Positions 9,405 through 60,390 of a DNA stretch of 64,000 nucleotides are shown here, piece by piece. The position numbers were made by a program, and so were the translations under genes. Source of the DNA: Bifidobacterium gallicum DSM 20093 = LMG 11596. GTDB taxonomy: Bacteria; Actinomycetota; Actinomycetes; Actinomycetales; Bifidobacteriaceae. The stretch spans positions 1-64,000 of the forward strand of contig NZ_JGYW01000003.1 in NCBI RefSeq assembly GCF_000741205.1, read 5' to 3'. The notes under the pieces were generated by a model. It did not search any database. It saw nothing but the letters and a program-made list of their open reading frames with translations, and had not been told where the DNA came from. Numbering within the stretch: position 1 is the stretch's first letter; each line of letters begins with the position of its first letter.

Positions 9405-9470
9405 CTGCGTGATGAACACTCGCAGCAATCCAATTCAACACACAACACCATGGTTTCGAGGGGAGACCGA

Positions 9471-12400
9471 ATGACCAACAACACAACAGGTGCGCTGAGG
9501 CGGCAACCACGTGTCTACGCGGCCCTAACGGCCCTAGCCATGATGCTCGCCACCGCCGTTCCTGCGTTGCTGCCGAGGACCGCACAGGCGAATGACCCGG
9601 TGGCGGGAATCTGCGTCCCAGAGGACATCACGCTCGGTGACGGCACCGATGGTGGTACCGTCGACACCGGCGTGGCCACGTGGGTCGGTCGCGACATGTA
9701 TGTGGGCGCCCCTAAGGCGGGCATAACCAATTACGGCAGGAATAGCAACGAGATCAACGGCTCGTACGCAGTGGAGGCCGAAGGCACGACCCTCGTGGGC
9801 GGCAAGCTGGCCATCAACTCGAAGAAGGCCTCCTGGAGCAATCGCGGCTTCCGCTTCGGCATCGTCGGCTTCGGTGCACAGTACCGCCCGGCCGCCGGCA
9901 GCGATGCGCTCGTCGTGGCCGGAACGAATTCCAACATCACCCTCACGGGAACCTCGAACAACGGCAGCCAGACCGTGGATACGAATGCGTTAGGCTGGGG
10001 CCGTAACGCCCGTGGTTGGGTCGGTACGCTCAAGAGCGGTGAATGGAACTACGATGCCCGCATCAGCGGCAACAAGAGCCAGACCGTCTACGACTACAGC
10101 AACCAGTGGTTCGATTCCGTATACAGTGACAACGCGGCGGACGTACCTGCTTCACAGGTGCTGTGGAACCAGTCCAATCCGCTCTCCAACGTCAAGCTGA
10201 ACGGTGCCAATGGCGCAACCGCGGATTACACGAACAACACGGAGACCATCCAGAAGCTCTCCCAGACGCTTGCTGCGATTCCGGCCACCGAGGACGCCGC
10301 CACACCGAAAGTCGAGAATGCCGGTACGTATGACAACGGCAGCCTGAACGGCACCTATACCTACAAGAAGTACAACAGCGACGATGGCGTGTACATCGGC
10401 GCGAACATCACCTTCTCGAACGATGGCGGGAAGCGCGAGAAGCTCATCGTCTTCGATGGCAAGAACACCGATGCGAAGACAATCGTATTCTTCCTGGATG
10501 GTTCGCAGCTTGCCGACGGTAACGACTACAACGGCACGTCGTTCATGTTCAAGAACATCCCCGACAACGCGTCCATCATCGTCAACGTGTCGGGTTCCGC
10601 TCCAATCTCCTTCCATAACGGTTGGCGTTTCTGGTGGAACGGCCTGCAGATTGGCAATGGCTACTACCTCAAGTCCAATAATCCCGCCATCCAGAAGGCC
10701 TATGAGCGTGCGGCCCAGGCGATCATGTGGAACTTCTACGAAACGAGCTACCTCAAGATCGAAGGTGGCGTGGTGACCGACGGCCAAGGTGTTGCCTGGG
10801 CCAATACCGGTCAGCCGAACGACCAGAAAGTCACCGTCAACGACGATCCCGCAGCGGCCATGATCGGCAGCATCCTGGTGCCGAACGGCTCCTTCGAGGA
10901 CCATGTCACGACCAACGGCCGTGTCTGGGTCGGCCAGGACTTCATGATGTACAACCCGAGCGTGGCCAGAAACTTCGGTCCCGGCGTCGGCGAAGGCGAT
11001 TCCGCGTCAATCCTCGACATGGACCAGGAACGCCACAACTTCCCGTGGACGGGTTCGCTGCACAGCGAATGCTCGACGATCGCCTGGAACAAGGTGGACG
11101 AGAGCGGCAAGCTGCTCGGCGGCACCCGTTGGGGTGTGTACGGATCGCTGGAGGACGCGAAGAACCGTTCGAACGGCATCTATCCAAACGTAGCGGACAA
11201 CAACATCCCTTCCGGTGATTGGAACCTCGAGGACGGCAAGTTCCGCGTCAATTCGCTCGTGCCCGGTGCCGACTACTACATCCGGGAAATCGAGACGGTC
11301 ACCGGATACAAGCTCAACGACAACATCTACGTGATCAACGCCGCGAACAAGGGTGACGTCGCCAATACCGCCATCAAGGCGGTCTACGACGGCCAAGGCA
11401 ATGCGCTCACCGGCGACAATGCAGACAAGGGACTGGCCAATGTGTCCCCCGCGGATTCGTCCAACCCGATCGGCATCGTCAACCCGACCGAGGGCGGCCT
11501 CGTCAACTGGGGCAAGTATGCCGAGGGGTCCAGCCAGCCCTACAAGGGGCTTGAGGGCTCCGAATGGAACCTGCAGAAGGACGGCGACTCGGAATCGTGG
11601 ACGATCACTGACAATACGTTGGCTGTTGCGGGCCTCAAGGTCTTCCACGGCGAGACGCTGGTCGCGGACAGCGAGACCGGCGAGATCGGCGCCGTCGTCG
11701 ATGTCGCGGAGTTCCAGCAGCTGCAGCTGAACGCGACCGTGCTGCCGGCGAGTGCCGTGCAGAAAGTGACCTGGTCCTCGGACAACGAGAAGGTGCACGT
11801 CAATGACGGTCTCATCAACGTGACCGAGTATCCGGGGGACGATGTGCAGGTGCACATCACCGTCACGACCGTGGATCTCGACGCGAGCGGCAACCCGATT
11901 TCAGTGACGATTCCGCTGCGCATCACGCAGGCGACGGTTGAGTCGCTCACCGTCAAGAAGGGCAACGATGTAGTGGCGCCGAACGAGACCATCGACATGA
12001 ACGTCGATGATACCGTGAAGCTGACCGCATCCGTCGAACCGGCGTATCTGCATCCCACCTTCACATGGACGAGCAGCAACCCCGGTGTCGTGACCGTCGA
12101 TGCGAATGGCACCGTGCACGCCGAGGGAGAGGGCACCGCAGACGTCACCGTGTCCTGCAAGGGCAAGACGCAGACGATTCGTTTCCTCGTCGCCCCCAAC
12201 CAATACCCGTTGACGGTCTACATCCAGTGGCCGGGCGCCAAGCCGACGTTCTACTGGTATGATGCACCTGGTGAAAGTGGGCCGGAGTGGGGTGTTGCCC
12301 CGTACATGGACCCGGTCGACTCCTGTGGGAACAACTGGTATTCGTATAATCTGCCCTTCGGCAGCGGCAAGGAGTTCAGTTTCATCATCAGCGACGACCA

Positions 12401-13811
12401 CAATGGCGAAAAGAAATACGCCATGAGCCTCTCGGATACGAATGAGTTCACCGGTCTGGAACCACCGGGGGGCACGCAGGGTAAGTACACGGCCGTCAAG
12501 GCGATGGGCAATATGAGGGCGTATATGATTCAGAATGGTGAGCTCTCCGTGGGTGCGCCCAGCTGTGCCGCCGTGACCCCCTCACGGGCCAAGGCGCTGA
12601 GCGTCGCGCCGCAGTCCATGTTCACACAGCAGGACCTACATGTCTCGTCCAAGCCTCTCAACGAGGTCGGCGCCGAGACGATCCTGCGCGCGCGCAAGGC
12701 GCAGATGCGTGACGCCGCCAAGGATTCCACGCCGATGGATCAGAACTCACGGCCCGGCGAATTCTCGCTGGCTCTGGAGAACGGCACGTACACGCTGTGG
12801 GAGAAGACGGCCCCCGCCGGTTACACGATCAATCCGACGAGGTATCGGTTCACGATTACGGACGGCGTCGTGGAATGGATCGGCGACCAGAAGCCTTCCA
12901 TTGTCGGTGCTGTCGGCTGGATTGCTGATTCGCCGACCACGGTCAGCTGGCAGAAGACCGATGCCGACAACGACGAACTGCTCGGCGGATCCCAATGGGG
13001 TATCTACGAGAAGATTGACGGAGCCGTCCAGGTCGAGCCGATTCAGCTGATCGAGGACTGCGTCGCCAATGACGCGGCGGCGTGCGCCACGCGGTATGCG
13101 AACCAGAAGTATTACGATGCCAATCCGGCGAAGGGCAAGTTCAAGGTCAGCAAACTGCCCTCCGGTTCCTACGTACTCAAGGAAATCGAGGCCCCGACAG
13201 GCTACGAGCTCCTTGAAAACGGATACCCGTTCAAGATCGATACCACCAGTACCAATGAAAATGATGTGAACATCGAAATCGGGGCCTTGAAGAACCAGAG
13301 GACCCTTGGTAGTGTTACCTGGAGCAAGGTCGACGCGGAGGATACTTCGAAGCTCCTTGCTGGTTCTGAATGGACGCTGACTTATAAGAAGGGCACAGAA
13401 GATCAAGTTGTCCTGAATATCGAGGATTGCAATAGTAAGTCTGGATGTGAGGCGCTTCCTGCTGATGGAGCAGCGTGGAATGCGACTGGTGGGAACGTGG
13501 TATATGACTTCAATGGCACGTTCAGTATCAAGAATCTGCCGTGGGGCAGCTACGAATTGGTGGAAACCAAGGCGCCTGACGGATACTACCTCGATGCCAC
13601 CGAGCACAAGTTCACGGTCGGACCCGATACCAATGAAACCGTTGAAACCATCAAGTTGAACTGGGATTTGGGTTCCATCCGCAACGAGCCCGGCGTCGTG
13701 CTGCCGTCGGCGGGTGGCGATGGACAGGCTGTGTGGGTGATGTTGGCGGGTGCGCTGGTGTTGCTCATGGGCATGGGGTGCGCGGTGATCGTGAATCGTC
13801 GTCGTGTGTGA
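9471..13811 (+). CDS. Pilus tip-type adhesin with choice-of-anchor-A, SpaA, Ig-like and starch-binding-like domains
   Basis: A sortase-anchored surface protein of 1446 residues, probably the tip adhesin of the pilus built by the genes downstream. The start is ATG 9471 after GAGGGGAG. In order: signal peptide (AALTALAMMLATAVPALLP); a choice-of-anchor-A type head (YAVEAEGTTLVGGKLAINS, later ILVPNGSFEDHV); a SpaA repeat near 540-620; and the first strands of another SpaA domain (WGKYAEG..., about 679-712). An insert of about 380 residues follows, with two bacterial Ig-like (Big_2) domains and a module near 913-996 (PTFYWYDAPGESGPEW, NNWYSYNLP) like starch-binding CBM25/26. The rest of the split SpaA domain (TYTLWEKTAPAGY), two more SpaA repeats, LPSAG, a membrane helix and a basic tail complete it. 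SpaA repeats usually carry isopeptide bonds. The CBM match is by eye only. Confidence 0.85.
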   Translation: MTNNTTGALRRQPRVYAALTALAMMLATAVPALLPRTAQANDPVAGICVPEDITLGDGTDGGTVDTGVATWVGRDMYVGAPKAGITNYGRNSNEINGSYAVEAEGTTLVGGKLAINSKKASWSNRGFRFGIVGFGAQYRPAAGSDALVVAGTNSNITLTGTSNNGSQTVDTNALGWGRNARGWVGTLKSGEWNYDARISGNKSQTVYDYSNQWFDSVYSDNAADVPASQVLWNQSNPLSNVKLNGANGATADYTNNTETIQKLSQTLAAIPATEDAATPKVENAGTYDNGSLNGTYTYKKYNSDDGVYIGANITFSNDGGKREKLIVFDGKNTDAKTIVFFLDGSQLADGNDYNGTSFMFKNIPDNASIIVNVSGSAPISFHNGWRFWWNGLQIGNGYYLKSNNPAIQKAYERAAQAIMWNFYETSYLKIEGGVVTDGQGVAWANTGQPNDQKVTVNDDPAAAMIGSILVPNGSFEDHVTTNGRVWVGQDFMMYNPSVARNFGPGVGEGDSASILDMDQERHNFPWTGSLHSECSTIAWNKVDESGKLLGGTRWGVYGSLEDAKNRSNGIYPNVADNNIPSGDWNLEDGKFRVNSLVPGADYYIREIETVTGYKLNDNIYVINAANKGDVANTAIKAVYDGQGNALTGDNADKGLANVSPADSSNPIGIVNPTEGGLVNWGKYAEGSSQPYKGLEGSEWNLQKDGDSESWTITDNTLAVAGLKVFHGETLVADSETGEIGAVVDVAEFQQLQLNATVLPASAVQKVTWSSDNEKVHVNDGLINVTEYPGDDVQVHITVTTVDLDASGNPISVTIPLRITQATVESLTVKKGNDVVAPNETIDMNVDDTVKLTASVEPAYLHPTFTWTSSNPGVVTVDANGTVHAEGEGTADVTVSCKGKTQTIRFLVAPNQYPLTVYIQWPGAKPTFYWYDAPGESGPEWGVAPYMDPVDSCGNNWYSYNLPFGSGKEFSFIISDDHNGEKKYAMSLSDTNEFTGLEPPGGTQGKYTAVKAMGNMRAYMIQNGELSVGAPSCAAVTPSRAKALSVAPQSMFTQQDLHVSSKPLNEVGAETILRARKAQMRDAAKDSTPMDQNSRPGEFSLALENGTYTLWEKTAPAGYTINPTRYRFTITDGVVEWIGDQKPSIVGAVGWIADSPTTVSWQKTDADNDELLGGSQWGIYEKIDGAVQVEPIQLIEDCVANDAAACATRYANQKYYDANPAKGKFKVSKLPSGSYVLKEIEAPTGYELLENGYPFKIDTTSTNENDVNIEIGALKNQRTLGSVTWSKVDAEDTSKLLAGSEWTLTYKKGTEDQVVLNIEDCNSKSGCEALPADGAAWNATGGNVVYDFNGTFSIKNLPWGSYELVETKAPDGYYLDATEHKFTVGPDTNETVETIKLNWDLGSIRNEPGVVLPSAGGDGQAVWVMLAGALVLLMGMGCAVIVNRRRV

Positions 13812-13877
13812 CCTCGTGGCTCGGACGGGCAATCGAGTGATCGGTTGATTCGTCTGGGTTGATGCCTGGCTGATATG

Positions 13878-13917
13878 ACTGATGGCCGCAAGAGTTGATG
13901 CTCTTGCGGCCATCAGT
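13878..13917 (+). terminator. Stem-loop after pilus adhesin gene
   Basis: A perfect 17-bp stem: ACTGATGGCCGCAAGAG pairs with its complement across a 6-base loop (13895-13900). The tail CGTTTGTG is only mildly T-rich. Confidence 0.6.
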
Positions 13918-14172
13918 CGTTTGTGGGGTGTGTGCGACTAGGTTAATTGGCTTCGAGTTTGAGCCGATTATGCAGTCACCGGTCGTTTGTGGGTGGGCGA
14001 GATCGTTGGAATATCAACGTTTTCTGAGGTTGTTGTGGCGTTATGTGAAGGATATGTGACGATTGGTGAAATCACTGGAATTTTCTTGACGCGTGTGGCA
14101 TTGTATATATTGCTTTGCGAATCAAGCAATCGGTTGATTACTATTGGTTACTGAGTAATCAACCTCCTTTGG

Positions 14173-14219
14173 GAGAGGGGCGCATGCCCCGGCCTCATGG
14201 CCATACATGCGCCCCTCTC
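14173..14219 (+). terminator. Strong stem-loop upstream of fimA promoter
   Basis: Perfect 14-bp arms (14173-14186 and 14206-14219) followed by the T/C-rich ATCTTCTCCCTT. It may insulate fimA from upstream transcription. Confidence 0.55.
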
Positions 14220-14370
14220 ATCTTCTCCCTTCCACAATCCTTACCTTGATAGGCATGAAAGTTTACTGTGCCTAGTAATAGGAACGATTGTGCCCGCACG
14301 AGAGTTAGACAACTTCTCCCGAACAACTGCAATCAACTTGTGAAAATTTGAAAAAATACTTGGTCTCAGG

Positions 14371-14399
14371 TTGCAAAGTTCAATCTCATAGCTTAGACT
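14371..14399 (+). promoter_or_regulatory. Probable fimA promoter
   Basis: TTGCAA (14371-14376), an exactly 17-bp spacer, then TAGACT (14394-14399). Transcription would start near 14406, leaving about 400 nt of leader before the fimA ATG. Confidence 0.55.
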
Positions 14400-14809
14400 C
14401 AAACATGTGGCCGACGGAATCGCTCTCAGCAGAGAGATTCGTCGCTCGGCAAAACTCAAGACGGAGAGCGGATTGAGGGAAGCACAACTTCCTTCGGTTC
14501 GCATAGCGAAACGAAGCGCACACAAATGTGCTGAGAATCGCAACTTGCATTTCCGATGTGTGCACCGGAGAAATCCTCCTGGATTTCAACGAAGGGGCCG
14601 GAGAAATTCTCCGGAAGCGGCGAAGCGATTCGTCCCGGTCAACCAAGACCTACCAGGTTGAAGTTGATTGGACATCGAGAAGTGAAGCACCAGCGGAGAC
14701 GGCGCGAAGCGGCGTTAATCAGACCCTCAGATTCTCCCGAGGAGATGATTCCGCAAATGTGCACACAAGGCTCCACCTGTAAACACAGATGAACCAATTA
14801 AGGAGAATC

Positions 14810-16318
14810 ATGAAGAAGCTCAACAAGGCAATCGTTGCCTTCGGCGTATCGGCGGCAATGCTCGCCACCGGCTTCGCCGGCATTTCCACCGCATATGCGG
14901 CAACTGGCGAGGATGCTACTGTCACCATTTCAAACTTCGTTGCCGGCGACGAGCTCGTTGGCTATCGTATTCTCGACATCACGTCCGAGAATAGCGGTGC
15001 CACGAGGGACGACGACAAGTTCGTCTATGCCGTCAACGCCGAGAACAGGAGTGCTCTCATCGCTGGCCTCAAAAAACTTGTGAGTGTTCCTGATGATGCT
15101 ACGGATGCTGATCTGATCAAGCTCGTTCTTAATAACCTGACGACCTCTGCCAACGTTGAGACCTTCGCGAAGGCTTTCAAGGCCGCTTCTCCGACTGCCG
15201 GTCCGACGATTACGGATGAGACGACCTCGGTTAATCAGGGATACTATCTCTTCGAGCAGACTGAACTCGGCAAGGACGACACCTACACCAAGTCGAAGTA
15301 TTTGGTTGTCAATGTCGGTAAGAACGGAGCAACCGTTACGCTGAAGAACGGTACCGTCTCGTTGGAGAAGAAGGTCGCGGACAACGGTGATCCCAACGCT
15401 CCTGAGGGTCAGGGCGAGAACGAAATGAACGACTCCGCCGATTACGCCATCGGTGACACCGTTCCCTTCCAACTGACTGGTACGCTTCCTGCCGAATACG
15501 ACGAGTATGAGACCTTCTACTACTCGTTCAACGATACGATGTCCGCTGGCCTCACCTTCAAAGCAGATTCTGTCGCAGTGAAGTCTGGCGCCACCGATCT
15601 CACCGAGTGCTTCACGGTGACCGCGGCGACCCCGATTACGATTGCAACGGCTAACCTCAAGGCATGCACCGCTGCTGCCAGCCTTACTGCTGATAGCGAG
15701 ATTGTAGTCACTTACAATGCGGAGCTGAACGACAATGCGGTCATTGGTACTGCTGGCAACCCGAACACCGCCAATCTGACCTTCTCAAATAATCCGTATG
15801 CGCAGGGCACAGGTGACCGCGGTACCACTCCGGATGACAAGGTTGTGGTCTTCACTTGGGAGTTCGATGGTACGAAGACATTCAGCATCGACCCCAATGA
15901 CGCCGATCTTCCGGTGTTCCAGCTGACCAACAACAGCACTGGTGCGCAGTATACTCTGTCTGTCACGAAGCAGCCAAGCGGTGCCTACAAGTTCGGTGTC
16001 AAGGGCATCGACGCGGGTAATTACACGCTTACTGAGACCTACACTCCTGCAGGCTTCAACAAGGCTGACGACATCACGTTCGACATTAAGCCGACCCACG
16101 ATGTCCTTGCGGATGAGCCGACCGCTGCTTTGGTCGTCACCGGCGATGGTGTGACTCAGGGCACTAATGGAGCACTTGCTACCGTTCTGAACGAGGGTGG
16201 TAACAAGCTCCCCGAGACCGGTGGCATGGGTACTGTGGCTCTGTACACGGCTGGTGCGGCTATCGTGCTGTTCGCTGGTCTGGGCCTGACCCTCGCGATG
16301 AAGCGTCGCAACGCCTGA
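14810..16318 (+). CDS. fimA: FimA-type major (backbone) pilin
   Basis: The 502-residue shaft subunit of a sortase-assembled pilus. The start is ATG 14810, five bases after AAGGAGA. It has a signal peptide (VAFGVSAAMLATGFAGISTA), an N-terminal domain (GDELVGYRILD), a fimbrial isopeptide-forming D2 domain with the typical NAVIGTAGNPNTANLTFSNN, a SpaA/Cna-B domain (YTLTETYTPAGFNKADD), the sorting signal LPETG, a membrane helix and the tail KRRNA. D2 and SpaA domains normally form Lys-Asn/Asp isopeptide bonds. No classic YPK pilin motif is obvious; lysines after LKNGTVSLEKK are candidates for polymerisation. It lies between the tip adhesin and the class C sortase and is paralogous to the pilin at 22246. 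Two terminator-like stems follow, suggesting it is made in excess over sortase. Confidence 0.92.
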   Translation: MKKLNKAIVAFGVSAAMLATGFAGISTAYAATGEDATVTISNFVAGDELVGYRILDITSENSGATRDDDKFVYAVNAENRSALIAGLKKLVSVPDDATDADLIKLVLNNLTTSANVETFAKAFKAASPTAGPTITDETTSVNQGYYLFEQTELGKDDTYTKSKYLVVNVGKNGATVTLKNGTVSLEKKVADNGDPNAPEGQGENEMNDSADYAIGDTVPFQLTGTLPAEYDEYETFYYSFNDTMSAGLTFKADSVAVKSGATDLTECFTVTAATPITIATANLKACTAAASLTADSEIVVTYNAELNDNAVIGTAGNPNTANLTFSNNPYAQGTGDRGTTPDDKVVVFTWEFDGTKTFSIDPNDADLPVFQLTNNSTGAQYTLSVTKQPSGAYKFGVKGIDAGNYTLTETYTPAGFNKADDITFDIKPTHDVLADEPTAALVVTGDGVTQGTNGALATVLNEGGNKLPETGGMGTVALYTAGAAIVLFAGLGLTLAMKRRNA

Positions 16319-16361
16319 TTCAGGTATCAAGGATCCAATCAATGATTGGTGACTGACTTAC

Positions 16362-16402
16362 AGCGGATGCTCTACCAACACGGTAGGGCATCCGCTCTTT
16401 TA
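16362..16402 (+). terminator. Terminator between fimA and srtC
   Basis: Arms AGCGGATGCTCTACC (16362-16376) and GGTAGGGCATCCGCT (16382-16396) with one mismatch, followed by CTTTTAT. Confidence 0.75.
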
Positions 16403-16465
16403 TGCAATCGTGGAACCCTTGTGAACACTATGGATTGCAGCACTGTGCTGCAGTAGACTCAAGGG

Positions 16466-16509
16466 GGGCAGACCACAATGTTTGTATTGTGCGTCTGCGG
16501 ATTTTTTTT
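16466..16509 (+). terminator. Second terminator-like stem before srtC, with T8 tail
   Basis: Arms GCAGAC-ACAAT and ATTGT-GTCTGC (16468-16498), followed closely by eight T (16502-16509). A G6 run (16463-16468) abuts the 5' arm. Confidence 0.65.
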
Positions 16510-16574
16510 GACCTGCGCCAGCGGAGCGCGCAGCATAGTGCAATGCACGGTATGACGGATTGAAAGGGAACGCA

Positions 16575-17561
16575 GTGAGCCCAACACCTGATCAGCAACC
16601 AGTGGACCAAACAGCTCAGGGCCACGTGCAGCCTGACCAGGATTCACAGGCTGCTGCAACACAAACAGCTGACGCACCACAAACGCCAAAGAAGAAGAGC
16701 AATGCGTTCATGAACATCATGATCGCAATCTGCTCGTTGGCTCTGCTCGGTGGCATCGGCGTGCTCGCATACCCTTCGTTCGCCGACTGGTGGAACCGTC
16801 TGCACTCGTCACGCGCTGTGGCCAGCTACGTGGAGCAGGTCAACGACATGTCTGCTGAGAACAAGGCCAAGCTGCTTGAAGGCGCGAAGCAATACAACAC
16901 GGACTTGTTGAGCTTCCCGAACCGCTTCCAGCCTAGCGACGCTGAACACGAGTACTACGAGAAGACACTCGACGTGACGGGTACCGGCATCATGGGTTAC
17001 ATCAGCATTCCGAAGCTTGAGCAGCGCATGCCGATCTACCATGGCACCGAAGAAACAGTGCTGCAGATCGCTGCAGGACATCTTGAAGGCTCGTCGCTGC
17101 CTGTGGGTGGTCCGAGTACGCATGCTGCGATTTCGGGGCATACAGGCTTGCCTAGTGCCGAGCTGTTCACTGGTTTGGACACGCTCAAAGAAGGTGACCA
17201 GTTCTCGGTCACTGTGCTCGATGACGAACATTGGTACCAGGTTGATCAGATCAATGTGGTGCTGCCTGGAGACATGAACAACCTTGCGATTGAAGACGGC
17301 AAGGATTATCTGACGCTGATCACATGCACGCCATACGGCGTCAACTCGCATCGCCTGCTTGTGCGCGGCCATGCGATTCCAACGCCGCCTACGGCCAAGG
17401 ATGTGCAGTATCCAAGTGCGCAGGACATGACGAACATGGCTATCGCAATCGCTGCCGGCGTGTTCCTCGTGCTTGCGTTGCTCGTCTGGTGGTTGATCCG
17501 TCGCAAAGCCAAGAAGAAGTCACGCGATGCCAATGGGGCTCATCATGCCCATGAGCGCTGA
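16575..17561 (+). CDS. srtC: Class C pilin-polymerising sortase
   Basis: A membrane-anchored transpeptidase of 328 residues that joins pilin subunits covalently at the cell surface. The GTG at 16575 follows AAAGGG at good spacing. A cytoplasmic Pro/Gln-rich head precedes a membrane helix near residues 44-65. The sortase fold follows with catalytic His189 (AISGHTG), Cys251 in TLITC and Arg260 (NSHRLL), then a second membrane helix near 287-308 and a basic tail. Two membrane helices are typical of class C. The lid motif often seen in class C enzymes (DPF/W) is not evident; the matching region reads SFPNRFQPSDAEHEYY. It follows fimA and is the only sortase in the window, so it probably serves all the pilin-like proteins here. 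Confidence 0.93.
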   Translation: MSPTPDQQPVDQTAQGHVQPDQDSQAAATQTADAPQTPKKKSNAFMNIMIAICSLALLGGIGVLAYPSFADWWNRLHSSRAVASYVEQVNDMSAENKAKLLEGAKQYNTDLLSFPNRFQPSDAEHEYYEKTLDVTGTGIMGYISIPKLEQRMPIYHGTEETVLQIAAGHLEGSSLPVGGPSTHAAISGHTGLPSAELFTGLDTLKEGDQFSVTVLDDEHWYQVDQINVVLPGDMNNLAIEDGKDYLTLITCTPYGVNSHRLLVRGHAIPTPPTAKDVQYPSAQDMTNMAIAIAAGVFLVLALLVWWLIRRKAKKKSRDANGAHHAHER

Positions 17562-17613
17562 ACGGAAATAAATAAGAATAAAACATGAAGTGTCCGTGAA
17601 GTGACGTGACAGA

Positions 17614-17642
17614 TTGCTCTAAAGCGGGTACGCTAGTAGCAT
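17614..17642 (+). promoter_or_regulatory. Candidate promoter for minor pilin gene
   Basis: TTGCTC (17614-17619), a 17-bp spacer and TAGCAT (17637-17642). The gap between srtC and the next gene is 304 bp; apart from this pair and a good ribosome binding site at its end, nothing else stands out in it. Confidence 0.4.
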
Positions 17643-17865
17643 AACTATCAGGGTGTGGCTCTGTGCGTCCGGGCGTGCGAATGCCGAGGTCTGTTGAAAC
17701 CAGTGTTTCGTAACAGAGTGCGGGATCCGAGGGTACGGAAAACTGCATGCTCGGGCCGAAGGCGGCTCTGTCACACCGCATATAGCAACAAACGAATCTC
17801 AAGAGAGCGAGAAACCGCCGGCTGAGACTTGAAGCAAGGTCAAGGCCCAAGGAAGGGATCACACT

Positions 17866-19038
17866 ATGACGAAGACCACTATGGCTCGCCGAGCATGGTT
17901 GGTGACGGCTGCCATGATGTCGACGGCAATGGCGTTCTGCGGCCTGACCGCACCCACTACATTTGCTGACGAAAGCACCGGCTCCATTAAGTCGGGGCAG
18001 AACAGCGTGACGGTAACGTACGAACATGAAGACAAGCCCGTCGCCGATTCCAACTACTACCTGTACCAGGTGGCTGAATGGAACGGTGAAATGCCGATGT
18101 ATGACCATCTGACGTTGACGCCGATGTTCCAGAAGTATGAAGACGAGCAGGGCATCAACATCTCGGGCATGCTCAAGCCGAGCGGATGTGCGGTGGCGGA
18201 TACGGACGCTGCTGCTTCCGGTGATGCTGCTGCTTCCGGTGATGCTGCTGCCACGACGGAGCCGACCGAATATGAACTTGCATCGCTGTGCTGGGATCGA
18301 CTGAACAGCACGCTGTTCCAGACGCTCAAAGTCAACGGCGAATTCTATGGAGACAACCTGGCCAAGCGTATTGAAGCGGGCGACGCGCGCACCGCGGAAA
18401 CCGACGCCAACGGACAGGTGACGTTCAGCGACCTGGGTGACGGCGTGTTCTTCCTTGTCTCTCCGATCGATGTCGTGCCGGAACTCGTGTACTCGGCGCA
18501 GCTCGTGTCGCTGCCGTCGGCCATGCCGGCCAGCGAGGAAGCGCGCCACCTGAGCGTGAAAGCCAAGCCGAACCTGTGGGCGGGCGTCGATCCGATCCAC
18601 GTGAAGAAGGTCTGGAAGAACGACGATCCGGCAACGCGACCGAAGTCCGTGACCGTGGAACTCTACCTGAACCTCGATAACGGTATTGACGAAATGGTGT
18701 TGATAGACACCGTGGAGCTCAACGAAAGCAACGGTTGGGAATACGACTGGGACACACTGCCCGAATACATGGACTACTCCGTGCGCGAGAAGGACGTGCC
18801 TGAGGGCTACAAGGTGACGGTGACGGAAACCAAGGACGGCCCGAACACGGCGTACTTCACGCTGACGAACACGAAGCCCGCCGTGCCGCCGGTGACGCCG
18901 CCGACGCCGTCGGTGCCGGAGAAGCCGGCGCAGACCGGTGCGAACGTGGCGCTGATTGCGCTCGTGGCCGTGGCATCGTGCTTCCTGGCGCTGCTGCTGA
19001 TTGTGGAAGCTCGGCGCGTAGCGAAAAATAAGCAGTGA
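17866..19038 (+). CDS. Minor pilin / sortase-anchored Cna-B protein
   Basis: A 390-residue exported protein, probably an accessory or basal pilin. It starts at ATG 17866 after GGAAGGG. It has a signal peptide (AMMSTAMAFCGLTAPTTFA), a prealbumin-like domain (ADSNYYLYQVAEWNGEMP, then GQVTFSDLGDGVFFLVSP), a Cna-B domain (KKVWKNDDPATRPKSVTVEL, YSVREKDVPEGYKV), a Pro/Thr linker, the noncanonical sorting signal PAQTG, a membrane helix and a basic tail. A 21-bp in-frame repeat near 18210-18250 encodes Ala/Ser/Gly/Asp. The gene at 25472 is a clear paralogue (compare the VYFL/VFFL and YDHLTLTP/TDHLTVLP segments). A terminator follows at 19241. PAQTG has no initial Leu, so recognition by SrtC is uncertain. 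Confidence 0.82.
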   Translation: MTKTTMARRAWLVTAAMMSTAMAFCGLTAPTTFADESTGSIKSGQNSVTVTYEHEDKPVADSNYYLYQVAEWNGEMPMYDHLTLTPMFQKYEDEQGINISGMLKPSGCAVADTDAAASGDAAASGDAAATTEPTEYELASLCWDRLNSTLFQTLKVNGEFYGDNLAKRIEAGDARTAETDANGQVTFSDLGDGVFFLVSPIDVVPELVYSAQLVSLPSAMPASEEARHLSVKAKPNLWAGVDPIHVKKVWKNDDPATRPKSVTVELYLNLDNGIDEMVLIDTVELNESNGWEYDWDTLPEYMDYSVREKDVPEGYKVTVTETKDGPNTAYFTLTNTKPAVPPVTPPTPSVPEKPAQTGANVALIALVAVASCFLALLLIVEARRVAKNKQ

Positions 19039-19280: not shown

Positions 19281-19895
19281 GTTGTTGCTCGTTGCTCTGC
19301 TGCCTGCTGCTCCTGTTTCTTCCGGTGCCTTCCTGTTTCTCCTGTCTCCTCTGTTCCTGTTTCTCCTGTCTCCTCTGTCCCTCTTTGTCCCTTTCCTCTC
19401 TCTTCCTTTCCTCTTTTTCCTCTTCTTCTCTTTCTTCTTCTCCCGTTCCTCCTCTTCTTTCTCTCCGGTTCTTTCCTCTTTTTCCTCTTCCTCTCTTTCT
19501 TCTCCTTCCTCTTTCCTTTTCTTCTCCCATCCTCCCTTCTTCCCCTTCCTTCTCTCCGGTTCTTTCCTCTTTCCTCTCTCTTCCTCTCTTCTTCTTCGCC
19601 CTTTTCCTCTTCTTTTTCTCTTCTTTTCTTCCTCCCGTTCCTCCTCTTCTTTCTCTCCGGTTCTTTCCTCTTTCCTCTCTCTTCCTCTTTTCTTCTTCGC
19701 CCTTTCCCTCTTCTTTTCCTCTTCTTTTTCTCCTCCCGTTCCTCCTCTTCCTGCTCCCTGTTTCCTTTTCCTCCTTTCTCTTCCTTTCGCTTTGTCCTCT
19801 TCTTTCCGTTCTCTCTTCCTCTCTTTTCTCTCTTTTCTCTCTTTTCTCCCTTCTTCCTTCTCCCTTCTGCTTCCTCCTGCTGTCTCTTTCTTTCT
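19263..19895. repeat. 633-bp pyrimidine tract with a single adenine
   Basis: The + strand from 19263 to 19895 contains exactly one A (19529) and few G. It is made of degenerate repeats of TCCTCTTCTTTCTCTCCGG-like units (CTCTCCGG at 19461, 19552 and 19653). Long frames on both strands (Phe/Leu/Ser-rich on +, Lys/Glu/Arg-rich on -) follow from composition and are not called as genes. Such tracts can form triplex DNA. It lies directly before the palindrome array. Confidence 0.8.
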
Positions 19896-19974
19896 ATTTC
19901 TCTCTTTTCCTCAACCTGATGGATCCCTCCGGAGTCCTGCGGATTCTCTTGGACCCCGTACCTGTATCGTCTTC

Positions 19975-20219
19975 GTACCACCGTGGTACAGAAGCGGTAC
20001 GGATTCACTTGCGAGGAGTCAATCTGTGTCGTGTTTGTACCACCGTGGTACAGCCGCGCTACGGATTTCGCTCGAAAATGCACGTGGTTGTACCACGGTG
20101 GTACGAACGCGTTCCAAACTCGTCAAAATCCGTACCGTAATTGTTCCGCCGTGGTACAAACGCATCCCATCTTCGCCTTCTTTGCCCCAACTCGTCTCGT
20201 TTCCGTACCACGGTGGTAC
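19975..20219. repeat. Palindrome array, type A: five copies of GTACCACCGTGGTAC
   Basis: Copies begin at 19975, 20037, 20090, 20143 (variant GTTCCGCCGTGGTAC) and 20205. Centre-to-centre spacing is 62, 53, 53 and 62 bp. The last lies 52 bp (centre to centre) before the first type B core, so A and B form one continuous array. Confidence 0.9.
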
Positions 20220-20432
20220 AACCGCGCTACGTTCTTGGCCGCAACTGCACCTCCCCTGACCATGCTGGTCAGCGGGGATGCAGTTTCGGGCCGAAAAGTG
20301 TGGTTTTCCTGACCAGGTTGGTAAGCGGAGATGCAGTTTCGTGCTGGGAAGTGCAGTTTTCCTGACCGGGCTGGTAAGGGGAGATGCGATTTCGGAGTGG
20401 GGAAGTGTGGTTTTCCTGACCACGCTGGTAAG

Positions 20433-20571
20433 GGGAGATGCGGTTTTGAAGTGAGGTGTGTTGTTTCCCCATGGAACTGTTCCACCTCGATTCTGATCTA
20501 CTCCATCCCCGCATGGTTTCCTGCCTATTGGGCGTGGGGAGAAGTGTGTTTTTCGTTGGAGGTGGGTTTTC
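20433..20571. repeat. Higher-order spacer unit in palindrome array (copy 1 of 3)
   Basis: This stretch lacks a palindrome core but recurs at 20909-21048 and 21437-21576. All three share CCCGATTCTGATCT-like and TTTCCTGCC-like blocks and a GGGCGTG motif. Each takes up three 53-bp periods and keeps the phase of the array. Confidence 0.8.
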
Positions 20572-20908
20572 CTGACCACGTTAGTCAGCGGAGATGCGGT
20601 TTCGTGCTGGGAAGCGCGTCCTTTTCTGACCACGCTGGTCAGCGGGGATGCATTTTTAAGTGGGGAAGTGGTGGTTTTCCTGACCATGCTGGTCAGCGGG
20701 GCTGCAGTTTCGGGCCGAAAAGTGTGGTTTTCCTGACCATGCTGGTAAGCGGAGATGCAGTTTCGTGCTGGGAAGTGTGGTTTTGCTGGCTGGGCTGGTC
20801 AGCGGAGATGCATTTTTAAGTGGGGAAGTGTGGTTTTCCTGACCATGCTGGTCAGCGGGGATGCAGTTTCGGGCCGAAAAGTGCGCCTTTCCTGACCAGG
20901 TTGGTAAG

Positions 20909-21048
20909 CGGAGATGCGTTTTTGGAGTGAGGCGCGTTGTGTTCCTCATGGAGGTGTTCCATCCCGATTCTGATCTCTTCCATCCCCCGTCTAATTTCCT
21001 GCCGATTGGGCGTGTGGGGAGGTGCGTTTTCTGTCGGAGGTGCCTTTC
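20909..21048. repeat. Higher-order spacer unit in palindrome array (copy 2 of 3)
   Basis: Second copy of the long spacer, containing ATCCCGATTCTGATCT and TTTCCTGCCGATTGGGCGTG. Confidence 0.8.
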
Positions 21049-21436
21049 CTGACCATGCTGGTCAGCGGAGATGTGGTTTTGAGTGGGGAAGTGTGGTTTT
21101 CCTGATCGGGTTGGTCAGCGGAGGTACAGTTTCGTGCTGGGAAGCGTGTCTTTCCTGACCACGCTGGTCAGCGGAGATGCAGTTTCGTGCTGGAAAGTGC
21201 AGTTTTCCTGACCGGGTTGGTCAGCGGAGATGCGGTTTGGAACACGGAGATGTGCCTTCCCTGATTGGGTTGGTCAGAGGGGATGCGATTTTGGAGTGGT
21301 GAAGCGTGTCTTTCCTGACCACGCTGGTCAGCGGAGATGCGTTTTAAGTGGGGAAGTGTGGTTTTCCTGACCGGGCTGGTAAGCGGGGCTGCGGTTTTAG
21401 GTCGGAAAGTGCGCTTTTCCTGATCTGCCTGGTAAG

Positions 21437-21576
21437 AGGATATGCGCGTTTGAGATGAGGCGCGTTGTTTTCCTAGTGGAGTCACCTCATCCCGATTCCG
21501 ATCTATTCCGCCTCCGTCTGGTTTCCTGCCTGGTGGGCGTGCGGGGATGTGCGTTTTCCGTTGGAGGTGGGTTTCC
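21437..21576. repeat. Higher-order spacer unit in palindrome array (copy 3 of 3)
   Basis: Third copy, containing ATCCCGATTCCGATCT and TTTCCTGCCTGGTGGGCGTG. Confidence 0.8.
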
Positions 21577-21751
21577 CTGACCACGCTGGTCAGCGGGGGT
21601 GTGGTTTTGAGTGGTGAAGCGTGTCTTTCCTGACCACGCTGGTCAGCGGAGATGCGGTTTTGGGGTGGGAAGTGTAGTTTTCCTGACCGGGCTGGTAAGG
21701 GGAGATGCGGTTTTGGGGTTGGGAAGTGTGGTTTTGCTTGGTGGGGTGGTA

Positions 21752-22245
21752 GGAAGTTGGGGGGGTTTGGGTTTGGTGGGATTGGCTGGAGGGCGCGAAG
21801 GGAAGGACGGGTCGTGGAGTGATGGGGGATGGTGGTGGGGGGTGGGGAAGAGTTGGGGTGGGTGTTTGCTGGAGGCCTAAGGGGGGGTTGGGCGAGTTGG
21901 AGGGGCGTGGCTAAATAATGGGTGTAATGAGCTGGGATTCTTACACTGGCAGCTGAGGGTGCAGTGAACAGAGGGGGAAATGATTCACAATGGGTGGCGA
22001 AGACGTTATGTGGAGTCTGGGGCCACGTAACGGATGGGGATTTTACACGTTTTTCTCCATCTATGGTTGGGCACACCAGCGTAGGATCTGCACCTTGCAG
22101 ATCGTGTGCAGTGCATCGGGTACCAGATCGGGTACCAAGCCTGGTTCGGAACCGTATCTTCTTGACGCCAAGCGTGGACCGCCATGATGCTGGGGGTGGG
22201 CCGCCTAAGGCTTGCTTCCTGATCATGCAAGCCTCAAGGAACATT
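21752..22245. other. G-rich segment and upstream region of second fimA
   Basis: No gene is supported. The first part is strongly G-rich on the + strand, with G7 runs at 21759-21765 and 21881-21887 and a quadruplex-compatible cluster (G6, G4, G4, G3) at 21837-21862. The rest should carry the fimA2 promoter and leader; no convincing -35/-10 pair was seen. An open frame extending upstream from fimA2 to 21964 has no signal-peptide character. Confidence 0.5.
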
Positions 22246-23949
22246 ATGAACAAGCTATTGAAAGGAACGATCGCTGCGGTCTCCGGCGCAGCCTTCACCC
22301 TTGCTGGACTTGTTGGTGTCAACAGCGCGCTCGCTGAAGATGCACCAGCAACAGCGCCGACAGATTCCGCTACAACAGCAACAACGGTGCCAACCATTAG
22401 TGGCACTCCAGGCACAGCCTCAACGACCACGAGCAAAATTACCGTAAAAGGGGCTGTGGCTGGCGGCATGATTGAAGGCTATCGACTGCTCAATATCGAG
22501 TCACAGTCGGGCGATTCGTTCATCTACTTGGTGAACCCTGACTACAAGGCCGCCATTATCAACGGCATTAATGCTGTCATTGGCAGCAGCGGTACGCAGT
22601 TCACTGATGCGGTCACCGATGCACAAATCATCGAATACTTGACGAAGAATCTTAACGATAGCAATATCAAGACATTCGCCACGGGATTCATGTCCACTAC
22701 GTCTGCGCCAACGCCTTCGTTCGAGCAAACTGATGCAACCAAGACGATTACTGCGCAGGTTGGCTATTACTTGTTCAACCAGACCGCTACTGGTGACCCC
22801 ACGGGCAAGGTGCTGTCGAACTACATGGTTGACACGTTGGGTGCAGCGCCTCTGACTATCACGTTGAAGAACGGCACCGTGACGTTGACCAAACAGGTCA
22901 AGGACAATGACACCAATGAAGATGCAAGCGGCGCTCCAACCACATCTATGCAGGATTGGGTGAACGGTGCGGATTATGGTCTCGGTGACGAAGTTCCTTT
23001 CAAGCTGACTGGTACATTGCCGAGCACGTATAGCACCTTCACTTCGTATTCCTATACGTTCACCGATACGCTGTCCGATGGTTTGACGCTTGATCCGTCC
23101 ACGGTCAAGGTGTACGCCGTCAACGGTACGGGCAATGCCCAGACCAAGACGCAACTTAACGGATTCACTGTGAGTGACACGACGCCAGTGACCACGCCTC
23201 ATGCCGGCAACCAGTTCACGATTTCCACGAACAACTTGAAAGTCGTGACTGCTACTACGGGGCAGGCCAATGTCCCGAACCCTCTGATTACCGCTGATAC
23301 CAAGATTGTGGTCGAATATGAGGCCACGCTGAACGAAAATGCCGTAATCGGCAACCCCGGCAACCCAAACTATGCTGATTTGACCTTCTCCTCCAGCCCG
23401 AATGTGGGTGGTGCAGGATCCACTGGAACCACGCCTGAGCAGCAGGCTGTAGTGTTCACCTATGAGCTCGACATCACCAAGGAATTCCAGGGTGCTGACG
23501 GCAAGACTGTTGACACCCCTACCAATGACATGCCTCAGTTCACGCTGTATGCGGCGGACGGCACCACCGAGGTGCAGGGCCCATTCACCGTTCCTGCTGA
23601 TGATCGCAAGCTTGTGATCAAGGACCTTGATACGGGTACGTACATCCTCAAGGAAACCAAGACTCCAGCAGGCTTCAACAAGGCTGATGACGTTGAATTC
23701 ACGATCAAGGCCGTGCATGGTACGGATAGTGGTGCAGCTACCATCACGGAGCTGACGGTATCCCAAGCCGGTTGGAATGCTGATCCGAGCACAGGCATTG
23801 TGTCGGGCGCGATTGTCAACTCGCAAGGAACCAAGCTGCCTTCGACGGGTGGTATGGGTACGACGTTGTTCTATGTGGCGGGTGCCGTGATTGTGGCGGC
23901 TGCTGTGGCTGGTCTTGTGATCGCGCTGCGTCGTCGCAACAACGCCTGA
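22246..23949 (+). CDS. Second FimA-type pilin (orphan, no adjacent sortase)
   Basis: A 567-residue pilin paralogous to the protein at 14810. It starts at ATG 22246 after AAGGAAC. It has a signal peptide (IAAVSGAAFTLAGLVGVNSALA), an N-terminal domain (GGMIEGYRLLNIESQSGD), a D2 isopeptide domain (NAVIGNPGNPNYADLTFSS), a SpaA domain (TYILKETKTPAGFNKADD), the sorting signal LPSTG, a membrane helix and the tail RRRNNA. Both pilins share LKNGTVTL/LKNGTVSL and the PAGFNKADD block. It has no sortase or adhesin of its own and is cut off from the first pilus locus by the repeat array. It could be an alternative shaft subunit for SrtC, or what is left of a second pilus operon. Confidence 0.9.
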   Translation: MNKLLKGTIAAVSGAAFTLAGLVGVNSALAEDAPATAPTDSATTATTVPTISGTPGTASTTTSKITVKGAVAGGMIEGYRLLNIESQSGDSFIYLVNPDYKAAIINGINAVIGSSGTQFTDAVTDAQIIEYLTKNLNDSNIKTFATGFMSTTSAPTPSFEQTDATKTITAQVGYYLFNQTATGDPTGKVLSNYMVDTLGAAPLTITLKNGTVTLTKQVKDNDTNEDASGAPTTSMQDWVNGADYGLGDEVPFKLTGTLPSTYSTFTSYSYTFTDTLSDGLTLDPSTVKVYAVNGTGNAQTKTQLNGFTVSDTTPVTTPHAGNQFTISTNNLKVVTATTGQANVPNPLITADTKIVVEYEATLNENAVIGNPGNPNYADLTFSSSPNVGGAGSTGTTPEQQAVVFTYELDITKEFQGADGKTVDTPTNDMPQFTLYAADGTTEVQGPFTVPADDRKLVIKDLDTGTYILKETKTPAGFNKADDVEFTIKAVHGTDSGAATITELTVSQAGWNADPSTGIVSGAIVNSQGTKLPSTGGMGTTLFYVAGAVIVAAAVAGLVIALRRRNNA

Positions 23950-31822: not shown

Positions 31823-32281
31823 CTAGACGTTGCGTTGGTTTTCGACGTATTGCTTGACGATTTCGAGCGGCGTTCCTCCGACGGTGGCGACGAAGTAGCT
31901 GTTGGTCCATAGTGTCGGGATGCGGCGTTTGAGGCTGGGGTATTCCTGCCTGAGGAGACGGCTTGAGCGGCCTTTGATGAGGCGGACGAGCTTGTTGATT
32001 CCGTATTGCGGGTCGCAGTCCACGAGCAGGTGCACATGGTCGGGCATGGTTTCCAGTTCGAGGATTTCGCTGTCATGCTCTTTGCAGACGTCTTGGATGA
32101 TTTCCTTGAGGCGCGCGTCTACGGGGCCGGGGTCTCCCGGTATTGGCGGGTTGTTGAGTTTCGGGTCGAGGCTGGTGATGACCTTGCGCCGGTACTTGGG
32201 GCACCAGACGACGTGGTAGTGGCACCGGTAGGTGATGTTGTGGTTGTGCTTGACGGCATCCATGTTTTTGCGACGGCTCAT
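31823..32281 (-). CDS. tnpA: IS200-type Y1 transposase TnpA
   Basis: A single-strand DNA transposase of 152 residues with the HUH fold. It has VVWCPKYRRKV, the metal-binding HUH motif in MPDHVHLLV, and the catalytic tyrosine in VKQYVENQ. ATG 32281 (MSRRKN) is chosen because it sits at the predicted transcription start downstream of TATACT (minus strand); 32308 lies upstream of that -10. No ribosome binding sequence is seen, so a leaderless message is likely. The length is normal for the family and there are no internal stops, so the element could be active. Confidence 0.9.
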   Translation of the reverse strand: MSRRKNMDAVKHNHNITYRCHYHVVWCPKYRRKVITSLDPKLNNPPIPGDPGPVDARLKEIIQDVCKEHDSEILELETMPDHVHLLVDCDPQYGINKLVRLIKGRSSRLLRQEYPSLKRRIPTLWTNSYFVATVGGTPLEIVKQYVENQRNV

Positions 32282-32285
32282 GCGT

Positions 32286-32339
32286 ACAGTATACAGCAGC
32301 GAAACCATATGCGTATATGTTTTATGTATGGTATACTGT
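32286..32339. promoter_or_regulatory. Mirror-image divergent promoters of tnpA and tnpB
   Basis: ACAGTATAC (32286-32294) and GTATACTGT (32331-32339) form an inverted repeat. Each copy provides a TATACT -10 element about seven bases before one of the two start codons, giving predicted leaderless transcripts in both directions. No good -35 was found. Confidence 0.55.
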
Positions 32340-51987: not shown

Positions 51988-52039
51988 CTAGCGCCAGGCT
52001 GCTAAGGAAAAGGCAGAACCCACCAAACCGCATCTCTCC

Positions 52040-52318
52040 TTACCAGCCTGATACGCAAACACGCACCATCCACCAGCAACCCGCATCGTTGCGTACCAGC
52101 CCGGTACGCAACGATGCCGAATCCATCCCCAAACCGCACCTCCCCTGACCAAGCTGGTCAGCAAAACTGCAGTTCCCCGCTCCAAACCGCACCTCCCCTG
52201 ACCAAGCTGGTCAGCAAAACTGCAGTCCCCCGCTCCAAACCGCATCTCCCGTTACCAGCCCGGTCAGGAAAGATGCAGAATCTGCTGCCAAACTGCATGT
52301 TTACTTACCAGGTTTGAG
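52040..52318. repeat. Palindrome array (second locus), five to six copies, period 53 bp
   Basis: Centres lie at about 52047, 52100, 52153, 52206, 52259 and (decayed) 52311. Cores: TTACCAGCCTGATAC, GTACCAGCCCGGTAC (type A-like), CTGACCAAGCTGGTCAG twice, and GTTACCAGCCCGGTCAG. Flanking blocks AAACCGCATCTCC and AAACTGCAG are the reverse complement of those in the 20-21 kb array, so this array is in the opposite orientation. Confidence 0.85.
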
Positions 52319-52351
52319 GGGGGGCACGAGCGCTCAAGCCACGTACTTCTC

Positions 52352-54025: not shown

Positions 54026-54660
54026 CTTCGAACCTTTCATACGATATTTCGTCTTTCGACGCTCCGCATCGGTGTGGAGCAGAAGAAGTTTCTCTCATGG
54101 ACTTCTTTCCGTGATTCCCCATTATGCACCACTTCACAGCAAATTGCAAACGTAATCATCATAAAAGCTGTTTTGAGCGCTCCATCACATCCCCGCGAAC
54201 CTCGTTTTCCCTAGAAAACAAGCCAAAACCGCCATGTGAAGAAAATGAAAGCGTTTGCCGCAACGAGCGCAACACACCCCCAACCTGTGCACCACCATCA
54301 CGCTGATTGCCTCCCAATAGCCAACGATTCCTTCTCATTCCTATGCGCCCCCACTCCTGCCTCTTCCCAATCGACCTCTTTCCCGTACCAGACTCTTCCC
54401 TACCTCGGCACTGTCCGATCCTTGCCCTTCCCGACCCGCCCTTTCCTCCGCGTTTATCTGTTTCTGCCGATTCCTTGTCCATTTTTATTTCTGACCATTT
54501 CCCCTCACCCCTTCTCATTCCTGACCTACCCCTATCTACCCCGGCCTCACCACTTCTCGTTTCCAACCAATCCCATCTCATTCCATCTACTCATACGGGC
54601 GAAGTTGAAGTGTGGGATGGAACAATACGCCGACTTGCGACTCCTATGTGCAGACGGCGC
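54026..54660. other. Upstream region of binding protein and pyrimidine-rich stretch
   Basis: No gene supported. LacI-type sites lie at 54144-54155 (TTGCAAACGTAA) and 54251-54262 (GCGTTTGCCGCA). From about 54310 to 54590 the + strand is rich in C and T, much less pure than the 19.3-kb tract, and leads directly into a type A palindrome array, repeating the order seen at 19-20 kb. Confidence 0.5.
54144..54155. promoter_or_regulatory. LacI-type operator upstream of binding-protein gene
   Basis: TTGCAAACGTAA lies about 120 bp upstream of the ATG at 54025. Confidence 0.55.
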
Positions 54661-54679
54661 CCCTAGGTGTAGCGTCTTC

Positions 54680-60381: not shown

Positions 60382-60390
60382 GTGTGGGTT

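Follow-up and report, generated by a model that had tools for sequence, protein, structure and literature searches.

What keeps a long row of palindromes at an almost constant distance from one another in a bacterial chromosome, and what might such an arrangement be for? The question is raised by positions 19975 to 21751 of the 64,000-nucleotide stretch of Bifidobacterium gallicum DNA analysed here (the window), which lies in contig C3 of the source genome (G000; 2,004,594 bases in 12 contigs). The original prediction described some 27 palindromes with the core ACCA-N3-TGGT, held about 53 bp apart on one face of the helix, a phasing taken as the usual mark of cooperative protein binding. The array itself is as described. 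Exact cores number 26 in the window, whereas 20 first-order Markov sequences derived from the window hold 1.25 on average, and 25 sites were scored between 19977 and 21686, namely five of type 1 (one degenerate) followed by 20 of type 2; since more degenerate units can be discerned by eye beyond these, a count of 27 is reasonable. The type-1 run (19975 to 20221) is built on cores of the form GTACCAC-N-GTGGTAC at steps of 62, 53, 53 and 62 bp, and the type-2 run (20253 to 21703) on cores of the form CTGACCA-N3-TGGTCAG at steps of 52 to 54, 106 to 107 or 156 to 157 bp. The three long steps, predicted at 156 to 157 bp, measured 156, 157 and 157 bp, and a related segment of about 100 bp lies inside each; the array also contains a higher-order duplication of 159 bp. 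That almost every step is 52 to 54 bp holds for most of them, but not for the two 62-bp steps in the type-1 part (19977 to 20039 and 20145 to 20207) or for the steps of 106 to 107 bp, which mark the places of decayed cores. Similarly, neighbouring sites do share a face of the DNA, but a 53-bp step at 10.5 bp per turn shifts that face by about 17 degrees, so that over 20-odd units it could turn right round.

The surroundings of this array have features of their own. Directly upstream lies a pyrimidine-rich tract of about 600 bp (19290 to 19915, plus strand) containing imperfect repeats, a period of 101 among them, and just past the array (21700 to 21900) the plus strand is G-rich. Sortase-dependent pilus genes flank the array on both sides (window 9450-19038 and 22246-23949), encoding SpaA, Cna_B and GramPos_pilinBB proteins and a sortase.

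The palindromic core is only part of what is repeated, the unit being larger and containing a second dyad in each spacer. Each unit of about 53 bp thus comprises the core dyad ACCA-N3-TGGT with type-specific flanks and a pair of inverted half-sites in the spacer, which read GATGCAGTTT-N8-AAACTGCATC in type 2 and GATACGGAT-N7/8-ATCCGTATC in type 1; in our reading of the listed spacers, the type-1 TACGGAT half is often partnered by an unlike half, TGCATTTT. Followed outward from the core on both strands, the type-2 half-unit runs TGGTCAGG-RRAGATGCAGTTT and is followed by some 8 bp that carry little information and by its own reverse; the type-1 half-unit runs TGGTACAAACGCGATACGGATT, with 7 to 8 bp between it and its reverse. 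Information in type 2 falls from 1.2 to 2 bits per position in the core to 0.2 to 0.4 bits in the middle. The palindromes are constrained: between arrays, identity in type 2 is 0.913 over the eight core letters versus 0.342 over the middle 8 bp of the spacer, where composition alone gives 0.301. Of the DNA between cores, which the earlier view counted as conserved with the whole unit, the spacer arms are conserved and the middle 8 bp or so are nearly random in their letters. By its repeats the array is, as proposed, not a CRISPR; its cores vary and its spacers share conserved arms.

Spacing was analysed on 280 cores picked regardless of their distance from one another, the scored list having admitted weak cores by spacing. 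Steps shorter than 100 bp numbered 208, of which 197 were of 51 to 54 bp (161 of 53, 22 of 52, 10 of 54 and 4 of 51), 10 were of 62 to 63 bp (7 and 3, respectively) and one was of 56 bp. Longer steps fell into classes of 103 to 107 bp (16 cases), 115 bp (1), 156 to 158 bp (6) and 210 bp (1), which are near sums of the unit at places where a core is missing or decayed. Spacer length is held far better than spacer sequence: among neighbouring type-2 spacers whose middles are identical at no more than 3 of 8 positions, 34 of 53 pairs have exactly equal steps. The step is thus fixed around near-random middles, and the other common class of step is longer by about one helical turn, which argues that spacing, too, is constrained. 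The 62- to 63-bp step stands at an end of a type-1 run in all 11 cases, with two weak sites nearby (C9:136755 and C11:113074) left out of account, and 10 of these 11 spacers yielded a profile of their own; several type-1 arrays contain no such unit. Cores of types 1 and 2 can also follow each other at 52 to 53 bp, with three clear cases (C1:29243, C3:20207 and C4:187156). Within this genome, then, the period does not drift freely, as it might in a degenerate satellite.

Nor does the array stand alone. The window holds three more, at 52020 to 52320 (five good cores plus a decayed one, spaced by 53 bp), at 54677 to 54916 (five type-1 cores at steps of 52, 53, 53 and 52 bp) and at 59997 to 60310 (type-2 cores at 60034, 60087, 60140 and 60245, with a decayed one at 60298), the last adjoining a 5S rRNA gene (60389-60505, minus strand). 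Over the genome the family occupies at least 46 loci, of which 44 are arrays of at least two sites and two are single type-1 sites (C2:282591, inside a called open reading frame [ORF], and C2:299012); three other lone sites (C3:17236, C3:22888 and C4:258344) were left out. This count is a lower bound, obtained from whole-genome pattern searches, 39 extracted stretches plus the window, and one chance find (locus C9:98928-99244 emerged only from a control stretch). Of 45 loci checked with a simple ORF caller, 42 are clear of called genes, the exceptions being two arrays that overlap possibly over-long ORF starts and one lone site within an ORF. The gene pairs around the 42 loci are co-directional in 24 cases, divergent in 9 and convergent in 9, so that the arrays have no preference for gene orientation, and a dispersed family of this kind is not the single silencer or partition site that had been suggested.

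Among the flanking genes that were scanned (a part of them all) no common function was found; they encode NusG, PEP carboxylase, a PASTA kinase, a glutamine amidotransferase, RNase III, phosphoglucose isomerase, protein kinases, permeases, FGAM synthase, pilins and other surface proteins. Three genes are enclosed by neighbouring arrays: one encodes a solute-binding protein (window 52706-54040), and the other two (L140:4492-5619 and L122:4416-5534) match no Pfam or NCBIfam family. The former of these two, a 375-aa ORF on the minus strand (C9, about 135.5 to 136.6 kb), sits between two type-1 arrays that are 91% alike and run in opposite orientation, and the gene beside the C9:135 kb array (L140:3208-4053, minus strand) gave a weak match to the SepX/GlpR (divisome) model (21 bits against a cut-off of 110, E 0.0003). 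Elsewhere, purine-rich degenerate repeats (GAAAGNGGCACAAAAG) come right after the type-1 array behind nusG (L120:4480-4800; C3, about 142.5 kb).

Blocks of several units are found again at unlinked places. Among the matches listed, the unlinked loci at C11:113 kb, C9:135 kb and C9:137 kb carry near-identical blocks (90.5 to 92.9% over 197 to 243 bp) whose likeness stops near the array borders. The gap holding the C1:154 kb array measures about 1.2 kb, compared with about 115 bp between the orthologous gene pair in the relative G003 (L245, near 17.0 kb), and the array-bearing gap after nusG measures about 0.8 kb, compared with about 310 bp in G116 (L160, near 9.9 kb). Array blocks have thus been gained or lost.

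If the arms of a spacer paired with each other, they should match better than arms taken from different arrays. We found no sign of this. In the source genome, type-2 arms within a spacer match at 9.41 of 18 positions versus 11.01 between arrays (n=160), a value reached or exceeded by 99.9% of 2000 within-array permutations and by all global ones; type-1 arms match at 8.32 of 17 versus 10.07 (n=38), a value reached or exceeded by all permutations. Comparing arms across different units within one type-2 array gives a similarly poor match (9.63), so that part of the deficit is polarity inherited through tandem duplication; the instability of long perfect palindromes could add to it. Across the core, adjoining letters are uncoupled and outer letters match less than permuted ones. 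Two relatives gave no significant excess either: G116 arms match at 9.0 of 13 versus 9.11 between (n=28 of 43 rows, after five other-strand duplicates and ten three-mismatch rows were dropped, and with a search pattern that limits arm variation), and G063 arms at 16.14 of 22 versus 15.59 (n=14 of 16 places, two near-copies being dropped). This lack of coupled arm changes in three species speaks against hairpins and for independent protein half-sites. An Rfam search over 15000 to 62000 returned only rRNA and sub-threshold matches. On the window's four arrays no family attained its gathering score; a match to mir-1421 that stayed below threshold fell within the first array (21155-21225; 27.4 bits against 45).

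The exact sequences appear almost confined to this species. Among the matches listed, 2 of 112 genomes of the genus contain the exact pair pattern (108 places in G000, one in G003), and 3 of 112 contain the type-1 core. The places in G003 are arrays with a period of 51 and a repeated dyad of roughly TTCCGTACC-N10-GGTACGGAA, so that G003 shares core letters with type 1. To look beyond shared sequence, 1.85 Mb from 20 genomes of the genus were run through Tandem Repeats Finder and the rows scored for dyad symmetry (palindromic being z ≥ 2.5). Palindromic rows with periods of 36 to 80 bp numbered 21: eight of 51 to 53 bp, six of 61 to 63 bp (five places, two rows being the same place) and seven others, at 36, 40 (twice), 46, 54, 59 and 69 bp. 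Arrays of period 51 to 53 or 61 to 63 were present in 6 of the 20 genomes (G003, G010, G020, G099, G116 and G128), mostly with other sequences; the other 14 sampled relatives, including three represented by 100 kb each (G062, G068 and G130), yielded no such array. Several of the relatives' arrays overlap open frames of at least 120 codons and may not all be intergenic. G116 has a family of its own, GTCRCAAAYGCAAY-N5-ATTGCANNYRYGAC, at 38 places, and 18 of its 23 steps below 300 bp are of exactly 51 bp (the others are of 102, 102, 103, 154 and 199 bp). In G020, two palindromic arrays with long arms (L293:5826-6031 and L264:14125-14295; periods 63 and 52, respectively) are unlike each other in sequence.

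Outside the genus, similar DNA was found in neither plasmid nor phage records, from which those of the source genome itself were possibly excluded; under the same proviso, stretches with the core pair numbered 20 in viral contigs and 76 in 84,980 other species. Tandem Repeats Finder recovered 22 arrays from the 76, three of them palindromic (periods 52, 54 and 54). As a control on period these 76 loci are query-biased towards 53-bp spacing and say only that periods of 61 to 63 bp are absent there. One of the stretches, from Neobacillus sp. Marseille-Q6967 (L044:2941-3316), is a palindromic array of period 52 with 7.2 copies that are 92% alike, a spacing that the query favours, and a single acidobacterial MAG, SZAS-9, supplied four (L029, L067, L081 and L088).

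The loci are distributed unevenly over the contigs of the source genome (P 0.005, post hoc). Along G116 the GC skew goes over from mainly positive to mainly negative near 1365 kb; this locates the terminus of G116 at that point and its origin close to 0. The first 280 kb of contig C5 (435 kb) match G116 at 1182 to 1384 kb. C5, anchored in this way around the terminus, carries 1 of the 46 loci versus 10.0 expected (P 0.0005, post hoc and on a rough contig order); the stretch next to its one array (C5:378 kb) matched G116 weakly at 914 kb. No site was present in ten 15-kb stretches of C5 or in five taken from the 60 to 235 kb part of C2. Synteny between the two genomes is broken, with C3 and C4 matching G116 in several distant places. 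The largest site-free arc of the G116 family (748 to 1694 kb; 36.5%, P 0.04, post hoc) contains the terminus, and that of G063 (348 to 1446 kb; 56.9%, P 0.0006, post hoc) contains the place where the terminus is assumed to be, the origin (position 1) and length (1.93 Mb) of G063 being assumptions and the GC skew of its loci having given no clear signal. The terminus test was devised after the data had been seen, and other causes could keep repeats away from the terminus. A model centred on the origin was dropped: the arrays, though sparse towards the terminus, showed no peak around the origin. parS-like sites provided a mere hint at which contigs are origin-side.

The original prediction knew of no described bifidobacterial element of this kind, which is nearly right. 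In the accessible parts of the open-licence literature on bifidobacteria we found no description of such arrays, with the exception of a spaced palindromic motif in Bifidobacterium animalis subsp. lactis AD011, GGGACAG(N)15TGTCCC, reported as 21 copies, 20 of them intergenic and mostly nearer the 3′ end, and left unexplained (Tong et al. 2017, PMC5217627); a B. dentium genome paper, in the portion accessible, mentions palindromic repeats only as CRISPR. The AD011 motif pair may belong to the same class as our arrays, being likewise palindromic and mostly intergenic and coming from the same genus, and its published description, in the accessible portion, mentions neither periodicity nor chromosomal distribution (PMC5217627). 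In G063, a genome of the same genus, GGGACAG-N15-TGTCCC occurs 11 times per strand, at 16 places, which supports the assignment to Bifidobacterium. The motif forms the centre of a longer dyad, about 48 bp in all, whose outer arms read TGCGTAA/TTACGCA; there, too, a large site-free arc lies opposite the assumed origin. Unlike the arrays, these sites have another sequence and mostly stand alone, at mixed distances from their weaker neighbours (39, 53, 58, 60, 74, 81, 106, 130, 135, 150 and 154 bp), so that phasing is unsupported in this case. Extra TGCGTAA heptamers stand beside the GGGACAG palindromes in three G063 loci (L306, L307 and L314), as if half-sites could multiply alone.

Better-known systems resemble the arrays in part. 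The REP and BIME elements of enterobacteria are described as extragenic palindromes, usually in more than 100 copies per genome and regularly spaced within BIMEs (PMC2817692), and BIME-2 are reported to attract gyrase, whose cleavage sites in E. coli are enriched in BIME-2 and under-represented in Ter (PMC6379681). The arrays are likewise extragenic palindromes in regularly spaced groups, but they differ in their two-dyad unit, in their steps of 51 to 54 or 62 to 63 bp and in their uncoupled arms, and, unlike REP/BIME systems with a RAYT, none of the Y1 transposases of the source genome is flanked by the repeats. The STAR elements of staphylococci have conserved 14-bp repeats with at least 40 bp of recurring sequence between them, are intergenic, expand and contract, differ in their loci from species to species and are given no function in the accessible account (PMC3532100). 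The arrays share the intergenic setting and the recurring sequence of at least 40 bp between short conserved repeats, whereas STAR repeats are GC-rich direct repeats for which, in that account, neither a dyad nor a helical step is described (PMC3532100); the STAR consensus T(G/A/T)TGTTG(G/T)GGCCC(C/A), as direct repeats, does not fit the array profiles, which have other, dyad-symmetric letters. The binding sites of Noc (about 70 NBS) and SlmA (24 to 52 SBS) are likewise dispersed palindromes, and they are under-represented near Ter (PMC4726725), as the arrays may be on the post hoc counts given above. Unlike those sites, which belong to known proteins, the arrays are runs, their sequences change from species to species, and the genome encodes no second ParB-family protein.

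A search for a protein partner among the Y1 transposases, serine recombinases and ParB of this genome revealed none adjoining the arrays, and no binding protein was found there. None of the three Y1 transposases (PF01797) lies directly beside a listed site, the nearest array being about 2.9 kb away (C3:139305 to 142244) and the other two transposases about 10 and 34 kb from theirs; one of the three, IS200-like, is in the window (31823-32308, minus strand). Eight Resolvase-domain (PF00239) hits, one of them at a contig end, come no nearer to a listed array than about 9 kb. As for a Noc, both PF02195 hits fall within C1:181961-182320, each reported in an open frame of 563 aa, and thus point to one ParB.

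Several explanations other than binding by a dedicated protein have to be weighed. The long inverted repeats invite the idea that the arrays act as hairpins, in RNA or in extruded DNA, serving as terminators, mRNA-end stabilisers or processing sites, and in some relatives (G020 and G010) arms of about 15 to 19 bp around loops of about 8 to 10 would suit this well. Yet the arms show no covariation, those of the source genome are less complementary to each other than to the arms of other arrays, no Rfam family was recovered at its gathering score on the window arrays, and divergent genes flank arrays as often as convergent ones, all of which makes hairpins very improbable. The same even split in gene orientation bears on the view that the arrays are operators of a transcription factor controlling neighbouring genes: the palindromes are of operator size and 9 loci do lie between divergent genes, but as many lie between convergent ones and the scanned neighbours are unrelated housekeeping or surface genes, so we think this very improbable. 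A distance of about 53 bp is possible between the subsites of a resolvase, and dif and lox sites have two inverted arms around a centre of 6 to 8 bp. One could read the arrays as dif-, lox- or res-like sites of a serine or tyrosine recombinase, and the G003 geometry can be read as 11-6-11 (TTCCGTACCAC-AACCAC-GTGGTACGGAA) and that of G010 as about 13-8-13. No Resolvase-domain gene stands beside an array, though, and tandem sites would be expected to delete each other; of the readings considered here, this is the one we credit least.

The main rival is that the arrays are selfish interspersed palindromic repeats, REP/BIME- or MITE-like, that are mobilised in trans and multiplied in tandem and either have no host role or are tolerated as gyrase-attracting sites; their period would simply have been inherited from the founding unit. 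We regard this as possible, albeit somewhat doubtful. It would account for dispersed copies, for near-identical unlinked blocks whose likeness ends near the arrays (among the matches listed), for the 159-bp duplication inside the window array, for the restriction of the sequences to one species and for the much shorter gaps at orthologous gene pairs in G003 and G116. Even the gap around the terminus is compatible with it, given that E. coli gyrase cleavage sites are also reported to be rarer in Ter (PMC6379681). It explains less readily why step length is kept despite a nearly random middle, or why the alternative step is longer by about one helical turn and recurs, at 61 to 63 bp, at five places in relatives. 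Moreover, no RAYT-like partner was found (none of the three Y1 transposases being directly beside an array), and no fixed element ends were seen.

We favour instead the reading that these are phased binding arrays for a putative protein, perhaps one that organises the chromosome or its division, and that they have been copied between intergenic places; we would give this a probability of roughly one half (0.52). A dimeric, sequence-specific DNA-binding protein would bind the dyad sites of each array, steps of five turns would put neighbouring dimers on nearly the same face, and a six-turn unit would sit at the ends of some type-1 runs. Neighbouring dimers would contact each other to yield a compact nucleoprotein block. 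Runs of several units would have spread by copying to numerous sites between genes, for the most part away from the terminus, and arrays of similar design but different sequence are present in several species of the genus. Of the original proposal, protein binding is probably right, although not at a single silencer or partition site. By analogy with the Noc and SlmA sites, we infer that such a protein would serve chromosome organisation, or the coordination of division with segregation, rather than gene regulation, and that the phase of its sites would be under selection.

Several points weigh against this reading. Species-specific sequences are odd for a vital chromosomal function, 14 of the 20 sampled relatives (three of them with 100 kb each) yielded no such array, and dispersed near-identical blocks are what one would expect of selfish repeats. 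Tandem duplication alone would copy a period within an array, and a period of 51 bp over five turns corresponds to 10.2 bp per turn, an imperfect fit. The depletion around the terminus is post hoc, weak in G116, dependent on an assumed origin in G063 and on a rough contig order in the source genome. A wider and more speculative possibility, which we consider unlikely, is that phased arrays occur throughout the genus, each with a fast-diversifying protein and lying origin-side and off the terminus, and that they would form a template for nucleoid occlusion or organisation in a phylum without known ones, the spacing of five or six turns being kept and not the letters.

A spacing rule that outlives the sequence would be unusual in bacterial intergenic DNA, in that geometry, and not letters, would be what is kept. 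If the arrays are selfish, they would represent a class of repeat with a period set by the helix and with a testable copying mechanism. If a protein does bind them, a widely used genus would have a chromosome-level factor not described before, and this factor would provide a handle on how division relates to the chromosome in bacteria that lack Noc and SlmA.
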